This document shows, piece by piece, positions 17,648 to 24,461 of a DNA stretch of 41,630 nt. Position 1 is the first letter of the stretch. The number at the start of each line of letters is the position of its first letter. Source of the stretch: Nitrospira sp. (GTDB lineage Bacteria > Nitrospirota > Nitrospiria > Nitrospirales > Nitrospiraceae); contig JAICUC010000002.1 in assembly GCA_025936075.1 (NCBI GenBank), forward strand, positions 1-41,630. The letters run 5' to 3'. A program made the position numbers and the translations under genes. A model generated the notes under the pieces. It was given only the letters and a program-made list of their open reading frames with translations. It had not been told where the DNA came from and ran no database searches.

Positions 17648-19135
17648 CTAGACAATCACACTGTCGAGGTGTGTCCGCACATCTTCCAGATATGTTTTAA
17701 ACGGGTCCGGCATAGGAAACGGGGCATGACCGCGCACTTGGAAGATCGACCAATTGATGACATAGGGAGGGAACAAGCCATCAGGCGTTGGAGACGGATC
17801 CGCCACTGATGCGTGCCGCTCATGCAAGAGATGTCTGACCAATTCACTGCGGCCGTACGCACGCGTGTTTTTCGGCGCCGTTTCCATCGCGAGGTGAATG
17901 AGGAAGTCTGTCGTCACACGAGGGACACGCCCCTCTTCCAATAATCCGTAATACAGTCCCTTCGAGGGATTCAGATTGTGATATTCCAAATCCAAACTTT
18001 TCAGCATGGGATCAGTCCAGTCGGCATGCTCCGCTTCTCGAAAGCATTCCAGCAGCCACAACTTGGACGCCCAGTCAACACGCCCAACAAGCTTTTGATA
18101 ATCGCCGCGTAAATCATGCAGCACCGACGCCCATTGGGTAAGGACCCAATCGGTTTCTTCATCCTGTCCCTTGCAATGCTGAACGGCACAGTCAAGAAAC
18201 CGTTCTTGAATATCCACAGCCGACATCGTCTTGTGAGACTGCAACTGGATCAGCCAGCGCCGTTCTTGATCCTGGGAAATCTCTTGGAGCGCTTCCACCG
18301 GTTCGTCGATTTCCAAATCCTGAGGCGCATGTCCTTCCTCAATGAGTTGCAGCACCAGCCCCGTCGTGCCGAGCTTCAATGCCGTCGCATATTCGGTCAT
18401 GTTGGAATCGCCCAGCAACAGATGAATCCTTCGGTATTGATTGGGATCGGCCAACGGCTCATCCCTCGTGTTTACGATCGCCCGATTGTGCTGCACCCAT
18501 TCGAAAAAATCGTTCACGATATAGTCGGCACGTTGGGAGATTTGAAAGGGCGGCTCCGATACATGATGGGCACCGAGAGCGGAACGCGGAATGAGTAACC
18601 GATCCGTCTGAATCCATGCATCCTGTAGGGCGGCGGAACCGACACGCCCCGAGCCGGTAAAAATCTGCCTGGTCACAAGAAAAGTCACGAGCGGAGCCAG
18701 CCCGCGCCTCGAAAAAGGAAACCGCCGAGAGACCAGATAGTTCTCATGCGAGCCGAAGGTCGCATCGGTTTCATGATCGATGTTGTTCTTGATCAAGGAC
18801 ACCTGTTCTGAAAAACCGAGTTCCTCGAGGGTTTGCTGCAGCAACAGGTCTCCGGCACGGTCCGACGCCACCACATCCGTGAGCGAATGGCATTCCGGCG
18901 AGGCATATTCTAAATGCCCCATATCAAGGTAGATACGCCCCGCATTGGTGAGGAATCCCCCATTGCCGGGAGGCTCATCATGCCCGCGATGGTGCAGATC
19001 CAGCACACCTCGCCGCTGGACCTGGAAGAGATGGTCACGGATCTTATGGGCAAACCATGTCGGAGAATGGTTCGGCCGGTCCTCGTGGATCAAGAGTCCG
19101 TATTCAGTCTCCAAACCAAAGATACGATTCAACAT
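17648..19135 (-). CDS. pafA: Pup/UBact ligase PafA
   Basis: PafA uses ATP to activate the C-terminal Glu of Pup and join it to a substrate lysine. The 495-residue protein has the glutamine-synthetase-like fold. The start reads RIFGLETEYGLL (nucleotide site), IYLDMGHLEYASPEC carries the catalytic Asp, and KNNIDHETDATFGSHENYL, TGSGRVG and NTRDEPLADPNQYRRIH follow. It lacks the insertion (Dop loop) present in the paralogue at 21028-22554, which is why I call this one the ligase. It begins 4 nt after the prcA stop with no good ribosome-binding site, suggesting coupling. It is the last gene of the proteasome operon. Confidence 0.9.
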   Translation of the reverse strand: MLNRIFGLETEYGLLIHEDRPNHSPTWFAHKIRDHLFQVQRRGVLDLHHRGHDEPPGNGGFLTNAGRIYLDMGHLEYASPECHSLTDVVASDRAGDLLLQQTLEELGFSEQVSLIKNNIDHETDATFGSHENYLVSRRFPFSRRGLAPLVTFLVTRQIFTGSGRVGSAALQDAWIQTDRLLIPRSALGAHHVSEPPFQISQRADYIVNDFFEWVQHNRAIVNTRDEPLADPNQYRRIHLLLGDSNMTEYATALKLGTTGLVLQLIEEGHAPQDLEIDEPVEALQEISQDQERRWLIQLQSHKTMSAVDIQERFLDCAVQHCKGQDEETDWVLTQWASVLHDLRGDYQKLVGRVDWASKLWLLECFREAEHADWTDPMLKSLDLEYHNLNPSKGLYYGLLEEGRVPRVTTDFLIHLAMETAPKNTRAYGRSELVRHLLHERHASVADPSPTPDGLFPPYVINWSIFQVRGHAPFPMPDPFKTYLEDVRTHLDSVIV

Positions 19136-19139
19136 GAGA

Positions 19140-19949
19140 TTACGCGAGTGATGGGCTCAGATCCGTCGGAAGCATCGTTCGCAACTCATCGGCCTTCAGC
19201 GCTCGATATTTGGAGGGGCCTTGCACGTGACGATCAAGCAAAGCGCATTCGATTGTCTTTTCGGCAATGCACCGACGCAGATGCGTATAGAGGGCCTCCG
19301 CATCAATCACCTGCTGATCAGGGACGGTCCTTGCTTCGTCATGGCCTTGGCCATCCTCCAGTGCTGATCGTTGCGCTCGATCACCGACCGCCCACGAACG
19401 AACCGCCACATCCACAGCGTCCTTCAGGGACACAATGGACTGTTGTCGGAGATACCCCATCATTTTTTCCTCGACCGCCGAGGTAGCGGCAAGCACCGCA
19501 TACCGACTCTTTTCCTCGAATGTCCCATCATAGTTGATCGTCAAGAAACCGTCTTTCCCGGATTTCTTGCCCAACTCTGCCAGCAAAATTTTCACGATGA
19601 AGGGAGCTTTGAATACCTCTTCGAACGCTTGTTTGATGGCGGGTGTGATGCCGTACTTCACCAGACGGCTCCCCGTCACATCTGATACGGAGCGATTAAA
19701 TCCTTCGACGTGCGCCATTTCCAGCAAATTGAAGCGTAGCTTCTCGAGGTCAGCCGGATGTCCCATGCCTCCCAGGGCTAAACGATCATAAATCTCATAT
19801 AGTTTGGGGGTGCCTTTGCTCATGGTCATGAGCAGAATGCCGCGCTCATACGCGACCCCGACGACAGGGGTCCCCTCTTTCAGTTGATCGTCGAGATATT
19901 GCCGGCGATTTCCGACTGCTTCCACCCACCGATACGGCTCTTCATACAT
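19140..19949 (-). CDS. prcA: Proteasome alpha subunit PrcA
   Basis: The alpha subunits form the outer gated rings of the 20S core and dock the ATPase. The 269-residue protein starts MYEEPYRWVEAVGNRR, followed by the strand VVGVAYERGILLMT. KLYEIYDRLALGGMGHPADLE is the helix region characteristic of proteasome subunits, and RSVSDVTGSRLVKY follows. It has no catalytic N-terminal Thr, as expected. A C-terminal tail of roughly 60 residues after the core fold is not obviously conserved. It lies 11 nt after prcB. Confidence 0.9.
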   Translation of the reverse strand: MYEEPYRWVEAVGNRRQYLDDQLKEGTPVVGVAYERGILLMTMSKGTPKLYEIYDRLALGGMGHPADLEKLRFNLLEMAHVEGFNRSVSDVTGSRLVKYGITPAIKQAFEEVFKAPFIVKILLAELGKKSGKDGFLTINYDGTFEEKSRYAVLAATSAVEEKMMGYLRQQSIVSLKDAVDVAVRSWAVGDRAQRSALEDGQGHDEARTVPDQQVIDAEALYTHLRRCIAEKTIECALLDRHVQGPSKYRALKADELRTMLPTDLSPSLA

Positions 19950-19960
19950 AGCTAACGACC

Positions 19961-20728
19961 TTACGTGCTTCTGGAAACTCTTGATTCAAATAATGAACGA
20001 AGCTGAAGATCAGGCATCATCCTGACACCGCTGCCCGTGATGAACTTAATGATCGGATAGAGACCGGCCTCGCGGTTGACTCCTCCGGTCGCGCTGTCGA
20101 ATTCTGCGGCACTCGTCAACAGACGCAATGCTTGAACGGTTGCTTGCTCTTCGGGCATCGCGTTCAGCGGCTGTTCACCCCATGTATTCAAGTAATGAAG
20201 AATTCCACGAATAGTCGATGAACCGGACCCGGATACCGCATATTCCACTCCTTCGAACTCAGCGCCGAGAATATCGTAAAAGTAGATTTTTGCCGCTTCT
20301 TGCCCGGCATCGTAACCGGCAAAGATCGGGGCAACGGCTCCAGTCCCCGCTAAAGCGGCCGCGACATTCTCCTTCAGCAATTTGGACAGAGCGCGGAGTT
20401 TTCCCTCAAAACTGAGTTCCTGGAGTTGTGTCCGCCGATAATACTTGAAAGAATGTTCAAGGATGCGCGCCATTTCATATGCGGTTGCCGGCACTCCGGC
20501 GATCGCCATGACACTATACCGGTCGATCTCCAATACCTTGTCAGTGCGGTCGTACATCACCATATTTCCGGCTGTCGCGCGCCGATCGCCCGCAACCAGC
20601 ACGCCGTCGCGATACTTAAAAGCAAGGATTGTTGTGGCAATCGTCAGTTCCTGCCCTGTCCCGGCCTGTCCCGACGATCCAAGCACGTATCCTTGTTCTT
20701 TCAAGAGTTGATAGAAATCGCCTTGCAT
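19961..20728 (-). CDS. prcB: Proteasome beta subunit PrcB (catalytic)
   Basis: PrcB is the threonine protease of the 20S core. After a propeptide of 31 residues, self-cleavage would expose Thr32 in TIATTILAFKYRDG as the nucleophile. The conserved AGDRRATAGN and a Lys in DRTDKVLEID follow. I place the start at the ATG at 20728 (255 residues, MQGDFYQLL) because GAGGAG (20743-20738) lies 9 nt upstream. An ATG at 20734 is only 3 nt from it, and starts near 20794 would put a strong inverted repeat inside the gene. The order beta before alpha matches actinobacterial loci. Confidence 0.92.
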   Translation of the reverse strand: MQGDFYQLLKEQGYVLGSSGQAGTGQELTIATTILAFKYRDGVLVAGDRRATAGNMVMYDRTDKVLEIDRYSVMAIAGVPATAYEMARILEHSFKYYRRTQLQELSFEGKLRALSKLLKENVAAALAGTGAVAPIFAGYDAGQEAAKIYFYDILGAEFEGVEYAVSGSGSSTIRGILHYLNTWGEQPLNAMPEEQATVQALRLLTSAAEFDSATGGVNREAGLYPIIKFITGSGVRMMPDLQLRSLFESRVSRST

Positions 20729-20737
20729 ACCCATCTG

Positions 20738-20828
20738 CTCCTCAGTGCTGAGTGAAAAGTGCTGCGTGCCTGAGTCTGACCGGAACAGCATCACTCTGAG
20801 TCTGCTCTCCGCTCAGCACTCAGCACTG
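20738..20828 (-). promoter_or_regulatory. Inverted repeat abutting the prcB ribosome-binding site
   Basis: CACTCAGCACTG (20817-20828) and CAGTGCTGAGTG (20743-20754) are exact reverse complements, giving a 12-bp stem with a 62-nt loop. On the mRNA the 3' arm ends exactly where the GAGGAG ribosome-binding site of prcB (20743-20738) begins, overlapping it by one base. It lies between pup and prcB and could set their relative translation or stability. Confidence 0.65.
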
Positions 20829-20836
20829 CTTCACCA

Positions 20837-21031
20837 CTACTCACCGGTCCTCTGCCGATACCGCTCTGCCTGTTTTGGATCGACCTTGCGCATCCGTTTC
20901 ATGAGACTATCCTTCTCCGGTGATTCTGTCTCCGGACGACGCGGCCCGCCGCCTTCTTCGAGTGGGCGGGGCGACTTCGGCATGGGATCGACTGGTCCTT
21001 CTCGCCGTTCCGGTATTGTGATGTGGTTCAT
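20837..21031 (-). CDS. pup: Prokaryotic ubiquitin-like modifier Pup/UBact
   Basis: A 64-residue, highly charged, probably disordered protein placed between dop and prcB, exactly where pup lies in actinobacteria. The N-terminal half is Pro/Gly/Glu-rich. The C-terminal half KDSLMKRMRKVDPKQAERYR is helical and basic and is the probable ATPase-binding part. It ends Arg-Thr-Gly-Glu, so the terminal Glu needed for isopeptide formation is encoded directly and Gly-Gly is replaced by Thr-Gly. This form, described as UBact in Nitrospirae and some other Gram-negative phyla, differs from mycobacterial Pup ending in Gln. The ATG overlaps the dop stop as ATGA. Confidence 0.9.
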   Translation of the reverse strand: MNHITIPERREGPVDPMPKSPRPLEEGGGPRRPETESPEKDSLMKRMRKVDPKQAERYRQRTGE

Positions 21032-22554
21032 ATCTGTGCTTCCTTTCTGGTGCTCCAGGCTGCCAGTGCATCAGCCGGTGAATGGGCTCGCTGGAAGACA
21101 TCCATGCATCGTCGGACTTCCCGCGGATCAAAGAGATCTGCCATGTCCAATGTTCGGGACCGAAACCTACCGGAAAACCGGACCTGTTCCCATTGCATCG
21201 ACTGAATCTGATCAGAAAACCGCTGCACGCAGAGTCCGCGCAGTCCTCCACGGGTATCGCTCGGACCGTTCCGAATCGCCCCTTCGATCTCCTCATCGGT
21301 CGTCATCCGCCAAGTTTTTCCTTCCGCTTCTAATCCGAAGTACAACCCCTGCGCCGGACTCACATTGTGATACTCCAAGTCCAAGCTGGCCAACCAAGGA
21401 TCGTCCCAACCGATCCGCTCTTCCCGCATGAATGTCTCAAGCAACCACTGTTTTGTGATCCAATCGAGCTTCCCGATCAATTGTAAACGGTCTTGCGCTA
21501 ACAGATGTAAGGTCTCACCCCATTCCGCCAACAGCCACTCCGACTCCTCATCGTATCCGGCCAGCTCGCGATGTGCAGCCTCGCAGTAATACTCTTGAAG
21601 CTCCAAAGCAGAAAGCCTCCGTCCGTCTTGGAGGCGAACGACTGCTTTCAGGTCCGGATCGCGCGATAACTGTTTCACCGCAGCTACCGGCTGATCCAGC
21701 TCGATGTTAGCTATAGCCCCTCGCTCGATGAGGTCGAGCACGAGCCTGGTCGTCCCGACCTTCAACGCCGTCGCATACTCGCACATGTTGGCATCGCCGA
21801 GGATGAGATGGAGTCGGCGATATTTTCGGCGGTCGGCATGGGGCTCGTCCCTGGTATTGAGAATCGGCCGGTTGTGCATCGTATCGACGCCCAACTCCGC
21901 TTCCATAAAATCAGCGCGCTGCGAGAGCTGATACTGTCCTGGAACGTAACCGGACTCCTGTGCTTCAGTCCCGACCTTTCCCGCGCCCGCGATCACTTGT
22001 CGGCTCACTAAAAACGGCACCAAGCCTGCGACGAGAGCCGGAAAGGGAACGGCCCGCGAGACGAGATAATTATCGTGACATCCATAACTGTGGCCATGGA
22101 AATCCGTGTTGTTCTTATACAGTCGGACGTGATGTCCTCCGAGCGTGTGATTGCGTCGCTGGGCAGCTCGCAGAAGAATACGCTCTCCCGCGCGATCTTG
22201 GGCAAGAAGATCTCTGATCGTCCGGCACTCCGGCGTCGAATACTCCGGATGCGTATGGTCGTTGTAGAATCGCGCGCCGTTCGGCAACACCAAATCGCTT
22301 TTCATTTCATGGAACGAAAAGGGACGATGGGCATCCACCTTCGCAAACTCATCCTCTTCCCTATCCTGCTGCAAACCAGAGACGCGAAAGCCACGAGCAT
22401 CCTCATGCGGGTCCTCACCGGCATAATCCCAACGCCGCTCGAAGGAAGCGACGAGATATGCCCGCACCAATTCCATCGATTCCACGACCGGATCCATATC
22501 CGATACGTCATCCCTTGTAATCCCGTACTCGGTTTCAATGCCGAAAAGACGCAT
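21028..22554 (-). CDS. dop: Depupylase/deamidase Dop
   Basis: Dop removes Pup from conjugates and, where Pup ends in Gln, deamidates it. The 508-residue protein starts MRLFGIETEYGI. It then has WDYAGEDPHEDARGF and an inserted loop rich in Asp and Glu (about residues 70-90) that distinguishes Dop from PafA. FYNDHTHPEYSTPEC carries the catalytic Asp, and KNNTDFHGHSYGCHDNYL and NTRDEPHADRRKYRRLH follow. I use the ATG at 22554 because it fits the family start, although the AAAGG site is close to it. An upstream TTG at 22599 is unlikely. Since the local Pup already ends in Glu, only depupylation is needed. Confidence 0.9.
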   Translation of the reverse strand: MRLFGIETEYGITRDDVSDMDPVVESMELVRAYLVASFERRWDYAGEDPHEDARGFRVSGLQQDREEDEFAKVDAHRPFSFHEMKSDLVLPNGARFYNDHTHPEYSTPECRTIRDLLAQDRAGERILLRAAQRRNHTLGGHHVRLYKNNTDFHGHSYGCHDNYLVSRAVPFPALVAGLVPFLVSRQVIAGAGKVGTEAQESGYVPGQYQLSQRADFMEAELGVDTMHNRPILNTRDEPHADRRKYRRLHLILGDANMCEYATALKVGTTRLVLDLIERGAIANIELDQPVAAVKQLSRDPDLKAVVRLQDGRRLSALELQEYYCEAAHRELAGYDEESEWLLAEWGETLHLLAQDRLQLIGKLDWITKQWLLETFMREERIGWDDPWLASLDLEYHNVSPAQGLYFGLEAEGKTWRMTTDEEIEGAIRNGPSDTRGGLRGLCVQRFSDQIQSMQWEQVRFSGRFRSRTLDMADLFDPREVRRCMDVFQRAHSPADALAAWSTRKEAQI

Positions 22555-22585
22555 AATCCTTTGGATGTCCAGATGTGAGGCAACG

Positions 22586-22624
22586 GGTGCAACGGGCAAA
22601 CATCCCGTCCCTCAACCTTGCACC
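22586..22624 (-). promoter_or_regulatory. Hairpin in the ARC-dop gap
   Basis: In the 92-nt gap, GGTGCAA (22586-22592) pairs with TTGCACC (22618-22624) and ACGGG (22592-22596) with CCCGT (22604-22608). No U-tract follows, so a terminator is unlikely. It may be an mRNA processing or stability element. Confidence 0.4.
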
Positions 22625-22646: not shown

Positions 22647-24383
22647 TCAGATGATGTGATTCACGAGGCGTTCTTCTGTCTGGCGTCCCCGCCGGAATGA
22701 GGAAATCCCAACGACCTGTTCGGGATGATGATCCAGCAGCTTCAGCCACTCCTCTGCCGCATCATCCGGCGGCAACATTTCACCCTCTCGAAATTCCTCT
22801 GAGACGGAATCGAGTAGATCCTTGGCCTGTAATCCCGACTGTTGCCCCGATTGAACCGTACGATCGATCGCCTTTTCCTTGGCACGTTGAATAATCGAGG
22901 CCAAGATGGCTCCGCTCACCAAATCGCCTCGATACAGCACTTTGTTTTGCCCGCTCCTGAGCCGGATCGACAGAAGCCGATTGTCGTCCGTTCGGCGGAA
23001 GATCGACTCAATGAGGTCTTCGACGAGCGAGGTCACTGCCTGCATCTGCTCACCGCCCCGTTCCTTCACCAGCAGCGGATCCAGCGGCAGATCCACGGTC
23101 AAATACACTTTCAGAATCTCGGCTGCGGCGTCCTTGTTCGGTCGACTGACTTTGATCTTCCGATCGATGCGGCCTGGACGCAGCACCGCCGGATCGATCA
23201 AGTCGGGCCGATTGGAAGCTAAAATAATGACGACGTCACGTAGCGATTCGATTCCATCCATTTCACTGCAAAACATCGGCACGAGCGTATTTGAGATATT
23301 GAAGGAACGCATGGCACGTCGCGTTCCCAAAATCGACTCCGCTTCGTCGATGAAGATAAACGGTAAGGCGCCGTCCTTGCGCCTCGCCCGGGCCTGTTCG
23401 AAGAGATCCCGGACCATCCGCTCCGATTCCCCCAGCCACATGTTGAGAATTTCTGGTCCTTTCACATGCAGAAATGCTCCGCTTGTCACCGGCGGACGCT
23501 TGTCGCGATCGGATCTGTGCTCTTGTTTGGATTCGCCGACCAACCTGGCCAAACTACCGGCTGCCGCTTGGCCGATGAGTGTCTTCCCGCATCCGGGTGG
23601 ACCATAGAGAAGAAAGCCCTTCGGTTGTGAAAACTTGAACCGTTCGAACGTCTCTGCGTGCAACAGCGGATACTCGATCGCCTTTCGGATACCGGCGATC
23701 GCCTCGTTCTGTCCACCGATCTGCTCCCATGTGATCTTGGGCGGGACATCAAGGACATGACGATGTGTCTTGCGATCCGTGAGCTTCTCGATCGCCACTC
23801 GATAGCTTGGATCGATGCGAATTTCATCGCCCGCCTTGAGCTCCACGCCGACAAGATCCGTCGATCTCTGCAAGATCAACGATTGTCGCCCCATCTCCTG
23901 TTCAAACCGCAATCGCCCATCAGGCATGGCCTCGGCCAGTTTCAAGATAGGACCGTTACGATCGTACCCGATCGTTTTAATCACGGCGTAGGCTTCGTTG
24001 ACCAGGATCTGCGTTCCGACCTTAAGATCCGTACCGGAGACGCGGGGGTCCACGTTGGCATAATACTCGGCTCCGCCGACGACGATACGGGCGAGTCCCT
24101 CACCGGGAACATCAAGTAAGGTCCCGATACGATTGGCCGGTGCCGTCAGTTTGACGACGACCTCGCTCACTTTCTTGAATTCCAGTTCACGTTGTTGATG
24201 GGCGGCTTGAGACAATGTCACCGCATGACGCAGCTTATACAGCAGCTTCTGCCGAGCATCCCCCTCGGGAAATGAGGCCAGGCATTGTTCAATCAATTCG
24301 AGCGGATCGGTCCCGGTCTTCAGTGACGGCTCGTCGCTCCGATCGTTGGGTTCATTCTGTTCAGAAACTCTGCGATCACTCAT
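22647..24383 (-). CDS. mpa: Proteasomal AAA ATPase ARC/Mpa
   Basis: A hexameric unfoldase that binds Pup and feeds substrates into the 20S core. The 578-residue protein has an N-terminal coiled coil (about 25-80), two OB domains (about 85-205) and an AAA domain. Walker A GPPGCGKT is at 261-268, Walker B FIFIDEAES at 342-350, and the arginine-finger region contains RPGRIDRKI. The post-AAA part (VLYRGDLVSGAILASIIQRAK) matches Mpa. The C-terminus ends Val-Asn-His-Ile-Ile and lacks the hydrophobic-Tyr-X motif (Gln-Tyr-Leu in mycobacteria) that docks into the alpha ring. The ATG at 24383 has AAGGA 7 nt upstream. Confidence 0.92.
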   Translation of the reverse strand: MSDRRVSEQNEPNDRSDEPSLKTGTDPLELIEQCLASFPEGDARQKLLYKLRHAVTLSQAAHQQRELEFKKVSEVVVKLTAPANRIGTLLDVPGEGLARIVVGGAEYYANVDPRVSGTDLKVGTQILVNEAYAVIKTIGYDRNGPILKLAEAMPDGRLRFEQEMGRQSLILQRSTDLVGVELKAGDEIRIDPSYRVAIEKLTDRKTHRHVLDVPPKITWEQIGGQNEAIAGIRKAIEYPLLHAETFERFKFSQPKGFLLYGPPGCGKTLIGQAAAGSLARLVGESKQEHRSDRDKRPPVTSGAFLHVKGPEILNMWLGESERMVRDLFEQARARRKDGALPFIFIDEAESILGTRRAMRSFNISNTLVPMFCSEMDGIESLRDVVIILASNRPDLIDPAVLRPGRIDRKIKVSRPNKDAAAEILKVYLTVDLPLDPLLVKERGGEQMQAVTSLVEDLIESIFRRTDDNRLLSIRLRSGQNKVLYRGDLVSGAILASIIQRAKEKAIDRTVQSGQQSGLQAKDLLDSVSEEFREGEMLPPDDAAEEWLKLLDHHPEQVVGISSFRRGRQTEERLVNHII

Positions 24384-24461
24384 AATTGGTCCTTCACGAC
24401 GCGTGACCACATGATCCTAACACACGCGCGTCTTGCAATGCTTTCACACGACCGACACGGA

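Follow-up and report, generated by a model that had tools for sequence, protein, structure and literature searches.

What a Pup-type ligase reads at the C-terminus of its tag is the question raised by a small gene in the window, by which we mean the whole stretch of DNA analysed (41,630 nucleotides of a Nitrospira sp. genome, contig JAICUC010000002.1). The original prediction described this gene, at 20837-21031 between dop and prcB, as a 64-residue modifier of the Pup/UBact type with a C-terminal Glu ready for ligation, preceded by Thr-Gly in place of the Gly-Gly of Pup. Translation and gene calls confirmed the ORF and its neighbours and added that it lies on the minus strand; the same coordinates are not open on the plus strand. 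The translation, MNHITIPERREGPVDPMPKSPRPLEEGGGPRRPETESPEKDSLMKRMRKVDPKQAERYRQRTGE, comprises 64 aa and has the C-terminus RQRTGE. Its ATG overlaps the stop codon of the dop-like gene (ATGA), and a Shine-Dalgarno-like AAGGAAG can be read in the sequence about 8 nt upstream. The flanking dop-like and prcB-like genes share its strand within a six-gene group, given here in the order of transcription:

22647-24410, minus strand: Mpa2, an Mpa-like proteasomal AAA ATPase (TIGR03689, 431 bits, below the cut-off of 504.75; C-terminus VNHII)
21028-22599, minus strand: Dop2, the putative Dop-like enzyme of the UBact system (PF03136, 1.3e-165; Dop-loop present; best Foldseek match Dop, 7oxv)
20837-21031, minus strand: UBact, 64 aa (PF20513, 2.2e-21; NF033388, 1.1e-21; family alignment)
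20837-20851, minus strand: terminal Arg-Thr-Gly-Glu codons and stop codon of UBact (translation; Arg-Thr-Gly invariant in 93 distinct relatives, with synonymous codon variation)
19961-20794, minus strand: PrcB2, a PrcB-like proteasome beta subunit (PF00227, 1.7e-24; N-terminal Thr motif TTILAFKYRDGVLVAGDRR)
19140-19949, minus strand: PrcA2, a PrcA-like, diverged proteasome alpha subunit (PF00227, 1.5e-5, 25 bits; TIGR03691, 2.3e-19)
17648-19135, minus strand: PafA2, PafA-like, the probable UBact ligase (PF03136, 4.6e-129; best Foldseek match PafA-Pup, 4bjr)

The ORF matched PF20513 (UBact, Pfam) with 75.8 bits against a cut-off of 27.8, and NF033388, the NCBIfam equivalog for the ubiquitin-like protein UBact, with 76.7 bits against a cut-off of 35, in both cases through the last profile position. 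A genome scan for UBact loci, of which the 80 closest were listed, returned titles almost all from Nitrospira or other Nitrospirota; among these 80 the closest relative of the window UBact was a Nitrospira sp. protein with 97% identity, and the carriers of the locus included Nitrospira moscoviensis and Ca. N. defluvii. The Dop/PafA-type enzymes, proteasome subunits and Mpa/ARC-type ATPase that define a UBact locus are all encoded alongside. Judged by its sequence, the window ORF belongs fully to UBact, a family already described, and the naming of UBact as the known exception to the Gly-Gly ending was right. The family reportedly received its name from Lehmann et al. in 2017 (BBRC 483:946).

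A chance or unrelated small ORF that encodes no modifier might also look short, charged and of low complexity, and might lack detectable homology to Pup, as UBact does in profile-profile comparison (E 0.14, probability 0.4%, not significant). Matches of about 1e-21 to both the Pfam and the NCBIfam model, the synonymous codon pattern and the conservation of the operon speak against this idea so strongly that we count it as refuted. Searches with PF05639 (Pup) gave no match to the window UBact at E up to 10, and the UBact profile found no match in the PDB. Since no profile homology between the two families is detectable, UBact appears Pup-like in its working yet falls outside Pup membership. Its RTGE end departs from the Gly-Gly-[E/Q] of Pup and, in ending GE, carries the wider G[EQ] signature. 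The motif Y-x-Q-[KR]-x-G that is common to UBact and Pup is descriptive.

Conservation of the tail was read within Nitrospirota, in a sample of 296 genomes. UBact matches occurred in 104 of them, and all matches above the family cut-off extended to the last profile position. The Arg-Thr-Gly tail was present in 93 of 93 distinct UBact proteins, followed by Glu in 73 and Gln in 20. These three residues were kept across 117 distinct UBact genes from Nitrospirota while every possible codon was in use for each of them (four for Thr, four for Gly and six for Arg), and this synonymous turnover implies that the constraint acts at the protein level. Gly-Gly was found in all Pups of the phylum (29/29), whose last residue is also E or Q.

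Thr-Gly in place of Gly-Gly is thus real. As a difference from Pup it stands; as a notable departure it does not, because Arg-Thr-Gly-[E/Q] is universal among the UBacts of the phylum and endings other than Gly-Gly were reported in 2008 and 2012. Iyer and colleagues (2008) gave the C-terminal Pup signature, in actinobacteria and beyond, as G[EQ] and not GG[EQ] (PMC2588565), and a 2012 review described Leptospirillum ferrooxidans as having two entire systems, the Pup of one of which lacks the terminal GGE (PMC3511204). As far as sequence comparison goes, RTGE is the normal signature of the UBact family and no oddity. The observation was correct but concerned a known family signature, and the notable addition is that two systems reside in the same genome. 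In PMC8599861 we found no description of glycine contacts in Pup complexes, and a literature search found no paper on mutants of the third-last tag position, which is Gly in Pup.

Two further loci concern UBact copy number. An apparent second UBact in one genome (G141, locus L051) scored 26.1 bits, below the cut-off, and was rejected as a chance RRQRTGE within a longer frame. In Nitrospira YR-XLJ-1 the UBact block is duplicated in tandem (L097, 1622-10191); pieces of PafA2 and Dop2 lie where the copies meet, and both UBact copies end RTGE.

The PF05639 search of the phylum recovered a canonical Pup in the window's own genome:

6202-6399 of locus L064, on contig C414: Pup, 65 aa, ending FVKNYVQKGGE; stands alone, away from its presumed partners Dop1, PrcBA1 and PafA1 (contigs C216 and C128)

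It is flanked by ORFs that we take to encode a membrane pyrophosphatase and a recJ-like protein. On contig C216 lie a second Mpa, with a GHYL tail, and the beginning of a Dop gene; contig C128 holds the remainder of the Dop, followed by PrcB, PrcA and PafA. This genome gave five Pup_ligase matches; two of them, at the ends of contigs C216 and C128, appear to be fragments of a single gene, so the genes were counted as four. No match to Pup was found between Dop1 and PrcB1 on these contigs. In deeper Nitrospirota lineages Pup lies on the same stretch as the genes of this first system (e.g. L068, L071, L075, L076 and L188).

Counted by profile matches, both tags are present in 97 of the 296 genomes, Pup only in 41 and UBact only in 7. 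Four Pup_ligase-family genes are usual where both tags occur and two where there is a single tag, the exceptions being mostly fragmented assemblies. Among the seven genomes with UBact only, G089 and G181 carry four copies, and so Pup was probably missed there. The one-contig genome G019 (L045) has UBact only, with the tail RTGQ, and two Pup_ligase genes, both within the UBact operon. Two Pup-type systems coexist in most sampled Nitrospira. Such coexistence was earlier reported for one Leptospirillum species (PMC3511204); no survey of it was found in searchable papers.

The original prediction also held that the tag C-terminus may reach differently into the PafA active site; the analysis covered which residues the two enzymes of the UBact operon keep and which they have altered. 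Dop2 scored best with the Dop model (TIGR03688, 473 bits, versus 370 bits for PafA), yet below the curated cut-off, while PafA2 scored about equally with the Dop model (321.1 bits) and the PafA model (TIGR03686, 318.5 bits) and missed the PafA cut-off of 551.3. PF03136, individual residues and structure matches give PafA2 the carboxylate-amine ligase fold of PafA and Dop with its catalytic Glu, Asp and Arg. Residue mapping showed that PafA2 retains Glu9, Glu11, Asp71, Arg218, Arg224 and His238, where Asp71 is the equivalent of the catalytic Asp and Arg218 that of PafA R201, which in the structure of the PafA-Pup complex is bound to the C-terminus of Pup by a salt bridge (PMC8599861). The catalytic residues and the Glu-binding Arg are identical in all four enzyme groups (Dop1, Dop2, PafA1 and PafA2). 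In the alignment the Dop-loop motif is present in Dop2 and absent from PafA2. With VIA-align 2, Dop and PafA chains differed by a few Z units at most as matches to PafA2. AlphaFold2 models of the single chains reached a pTM of 0.85 (PafA2) and 0.89 (Dop2). In PafA2 the predicted alpha-loop is helical at residues 210-217, where pLDDT stays below 50; in Dop2 most of the predicted loop is non-helical, with block means of about 79-88. These models point toward PafA2 as the ligase and Dop2 as the depupylase, but are not decisive.

Two changes set PafA2 apart. The Thr-Thr of the alpha-loop is replaced by Val214 and Gln215 in the PafA2 clade, and Leu228 takes the place of a His that is invariant in all other compared enzymes. 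The first of the two threonines hydrogen-bonds the C-terminal residue of Pup in Dop (PMC8599861), and alanine mutants of both are slower in M. smegmatis PafA (PMC7947786), so that with these threonines and the His lost the activity of PafA2 could differ or be reduced. A rival reading sees the operon in decay, with tagging and degradation both lost through the remodelled alpha-loop of PafA2 and the missing docking tail of Mpa2. The divergence of PafA2 and PrcA2 (the latter with only 25 bits to PF00227), the missing Thr-Thr and His, and the absence of a GQYL-like tail from Mpa2 would agree with decay. However, all six genes are open, and the order Mpa2-Dop2-UBact-PrcB2-PrcA2-PafA2 is the same in the 86 loci that reach far enough; the UBact tail and the catalytic residues are invariant, the Mpa2 tails are conserved, and the one-contig genome keeps UBact as its sole system. 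We consider decay very unlikely.

In a tree of 118 enzymes, Dop1, Dop2, PafA1 and PafA2 each formed a single clade, with Dop2 and PafA2 as sisters (SH-aLRT 96) and a long PafA2 stem. We do not claim the independent ligase/hydrolase split that this topology would imply, since the AU test also allows all Dop versus all PafA (p 0.319) and the stem is long. Coevolution of enzymes and tails is likewise not claimed: at 70% conservation 7 columns separated UBact-type from Pup-type in both Dop and PafA, versus 3 and 1 in two control partitions, which is too weak and could be explained by shared ancestry. At 90% conservation no specificity-determining column was found.

Taken together, we consider it very likely that this Nitrospira genome runs two Pup-type systems for tagging and proteasomal degradation side by side, and that UBact is the tag of the second and is ligated by PafA2 of its own operon. 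This reading starts from the observed family membership, invariant tail, operon, catalytic residues, second Pup system and one enzyme pair per modifier, and we infer its ligation, removal, degradation and insulation steps with reactions carried over from the Pup system. By this analogy, PafA2 would most likely phosphorylate the side-chain carboxylate of the C-terminal Glu of UBact and link it to lysines of substrates. Removal of UBact would fall to Dop2, as would, in relatives with a terminal Gln, the deamidation of the RTGQ forms. The ATPase of the operon and its PrcBA core would degrade the tagged proteins. Arg-Thr-Gly-Glu would serve as the fixed recognition sequence of the family.

With a canonical Pup system present in this genome as well, the Thr/Gly difference can plausibly be given a function. 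The tag ends align as Y-x-Q-[K/R]-x-G-[E/Q], in which the third-last residue is Gly in Pup and Thr in UBact, and over the last 24 residues UBact has a mean net charge of +4.1 and Pup one of -4.7. This Thr and the reversed charge probably help each tag to stay with its own enzyme set. The ATPases (22647-24410 in the window and L095 1926-3725) differ at their C-termini: Mpa1 tails are GHYL or GHYF and resemble GQYL, the motif that opens mycobacterial proteasomes (PMC12288473), whereas Mpa2 tails are conserved, mostly of the NQII type (NHII in the window), and lack a GQYL-type docking tail. These sequences suggest that the two ATPases do not dock to their proteasome cores in the same way. The N-terminal segments of Mpa1 and Mpa2, where we sought a charge difference matching that of the tags, showed none worth noting.

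We give an even chance to the proposal that two systems work in mutual insulation within the cells of most Nitrospira and of many other Nitrospirota, through a Gly-Gly/Thr-Gly code, the charge reversal of the tags and matching ligase, depupylase and ATPase variants. If instead either PafA used either tag, the third-last Thr would be a lineage marker fixed by descent. The shared features of all Pup-type tags would then suffice, these being only the second-last G and the last E or Q (G[EQ], PMC2588565), and neither the sameness of the catalytic residues and Glu-binding Arg across the four enzyme groups nor the want of a strong pattern of specificity-determining columns would surprise. Such free exchange is harder to reconcile with a Thr that all 93 sequences retain while its codons vary, alongside an invariant Gly in the co-resident Pups, with recognition segments of opposite charge, and with an enzyme copy number that tracks the number of tags; we regard it as unlikely.

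A genome that holds two related tags, each with an invariant tail of its own and a separate pair of enzymes, is a natural experiment on what Pup-type ligases read at the tag C-terminus. The pairing of the tags also bears on whether bacteria divide their substrates between two proteasomes. Candidate organisms for the two-tag question are Nitrospira moscoviensis and Ca. N. defluvii.

Compared with known systems, the window member agrees with the UBact family in sequence, in length, in its operon with Dop, PafA, PrcBA and Mpa-like genes and in its R-T-G-E/Q end, and no difference was found. Like Pup of the actinobacteria and of its own genome, UBact is small, charged and encoded with or near Dop, PafA and proteasome genes, with homologous enzymes; unlike Pup, it has Thr-Gly and not Gly-Gly, a basic and not an acidic C-terminal segment, and its own enzyme clades. 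The nearest precedent for the pair is the L1 and L2 systems of Leptospirillum ferrooxidans (PMC3511204), where a Nitrospirota genome likewise has two entire, very different systems and one tag, that of L2, without GGE. That report concerned one species, whereas both tags are found here in about a third of the sampled genomes of the phylum, and in Nitrospira, unlike Leptospirillum ferrooxidans, the canonical pup is detached from its own operon.
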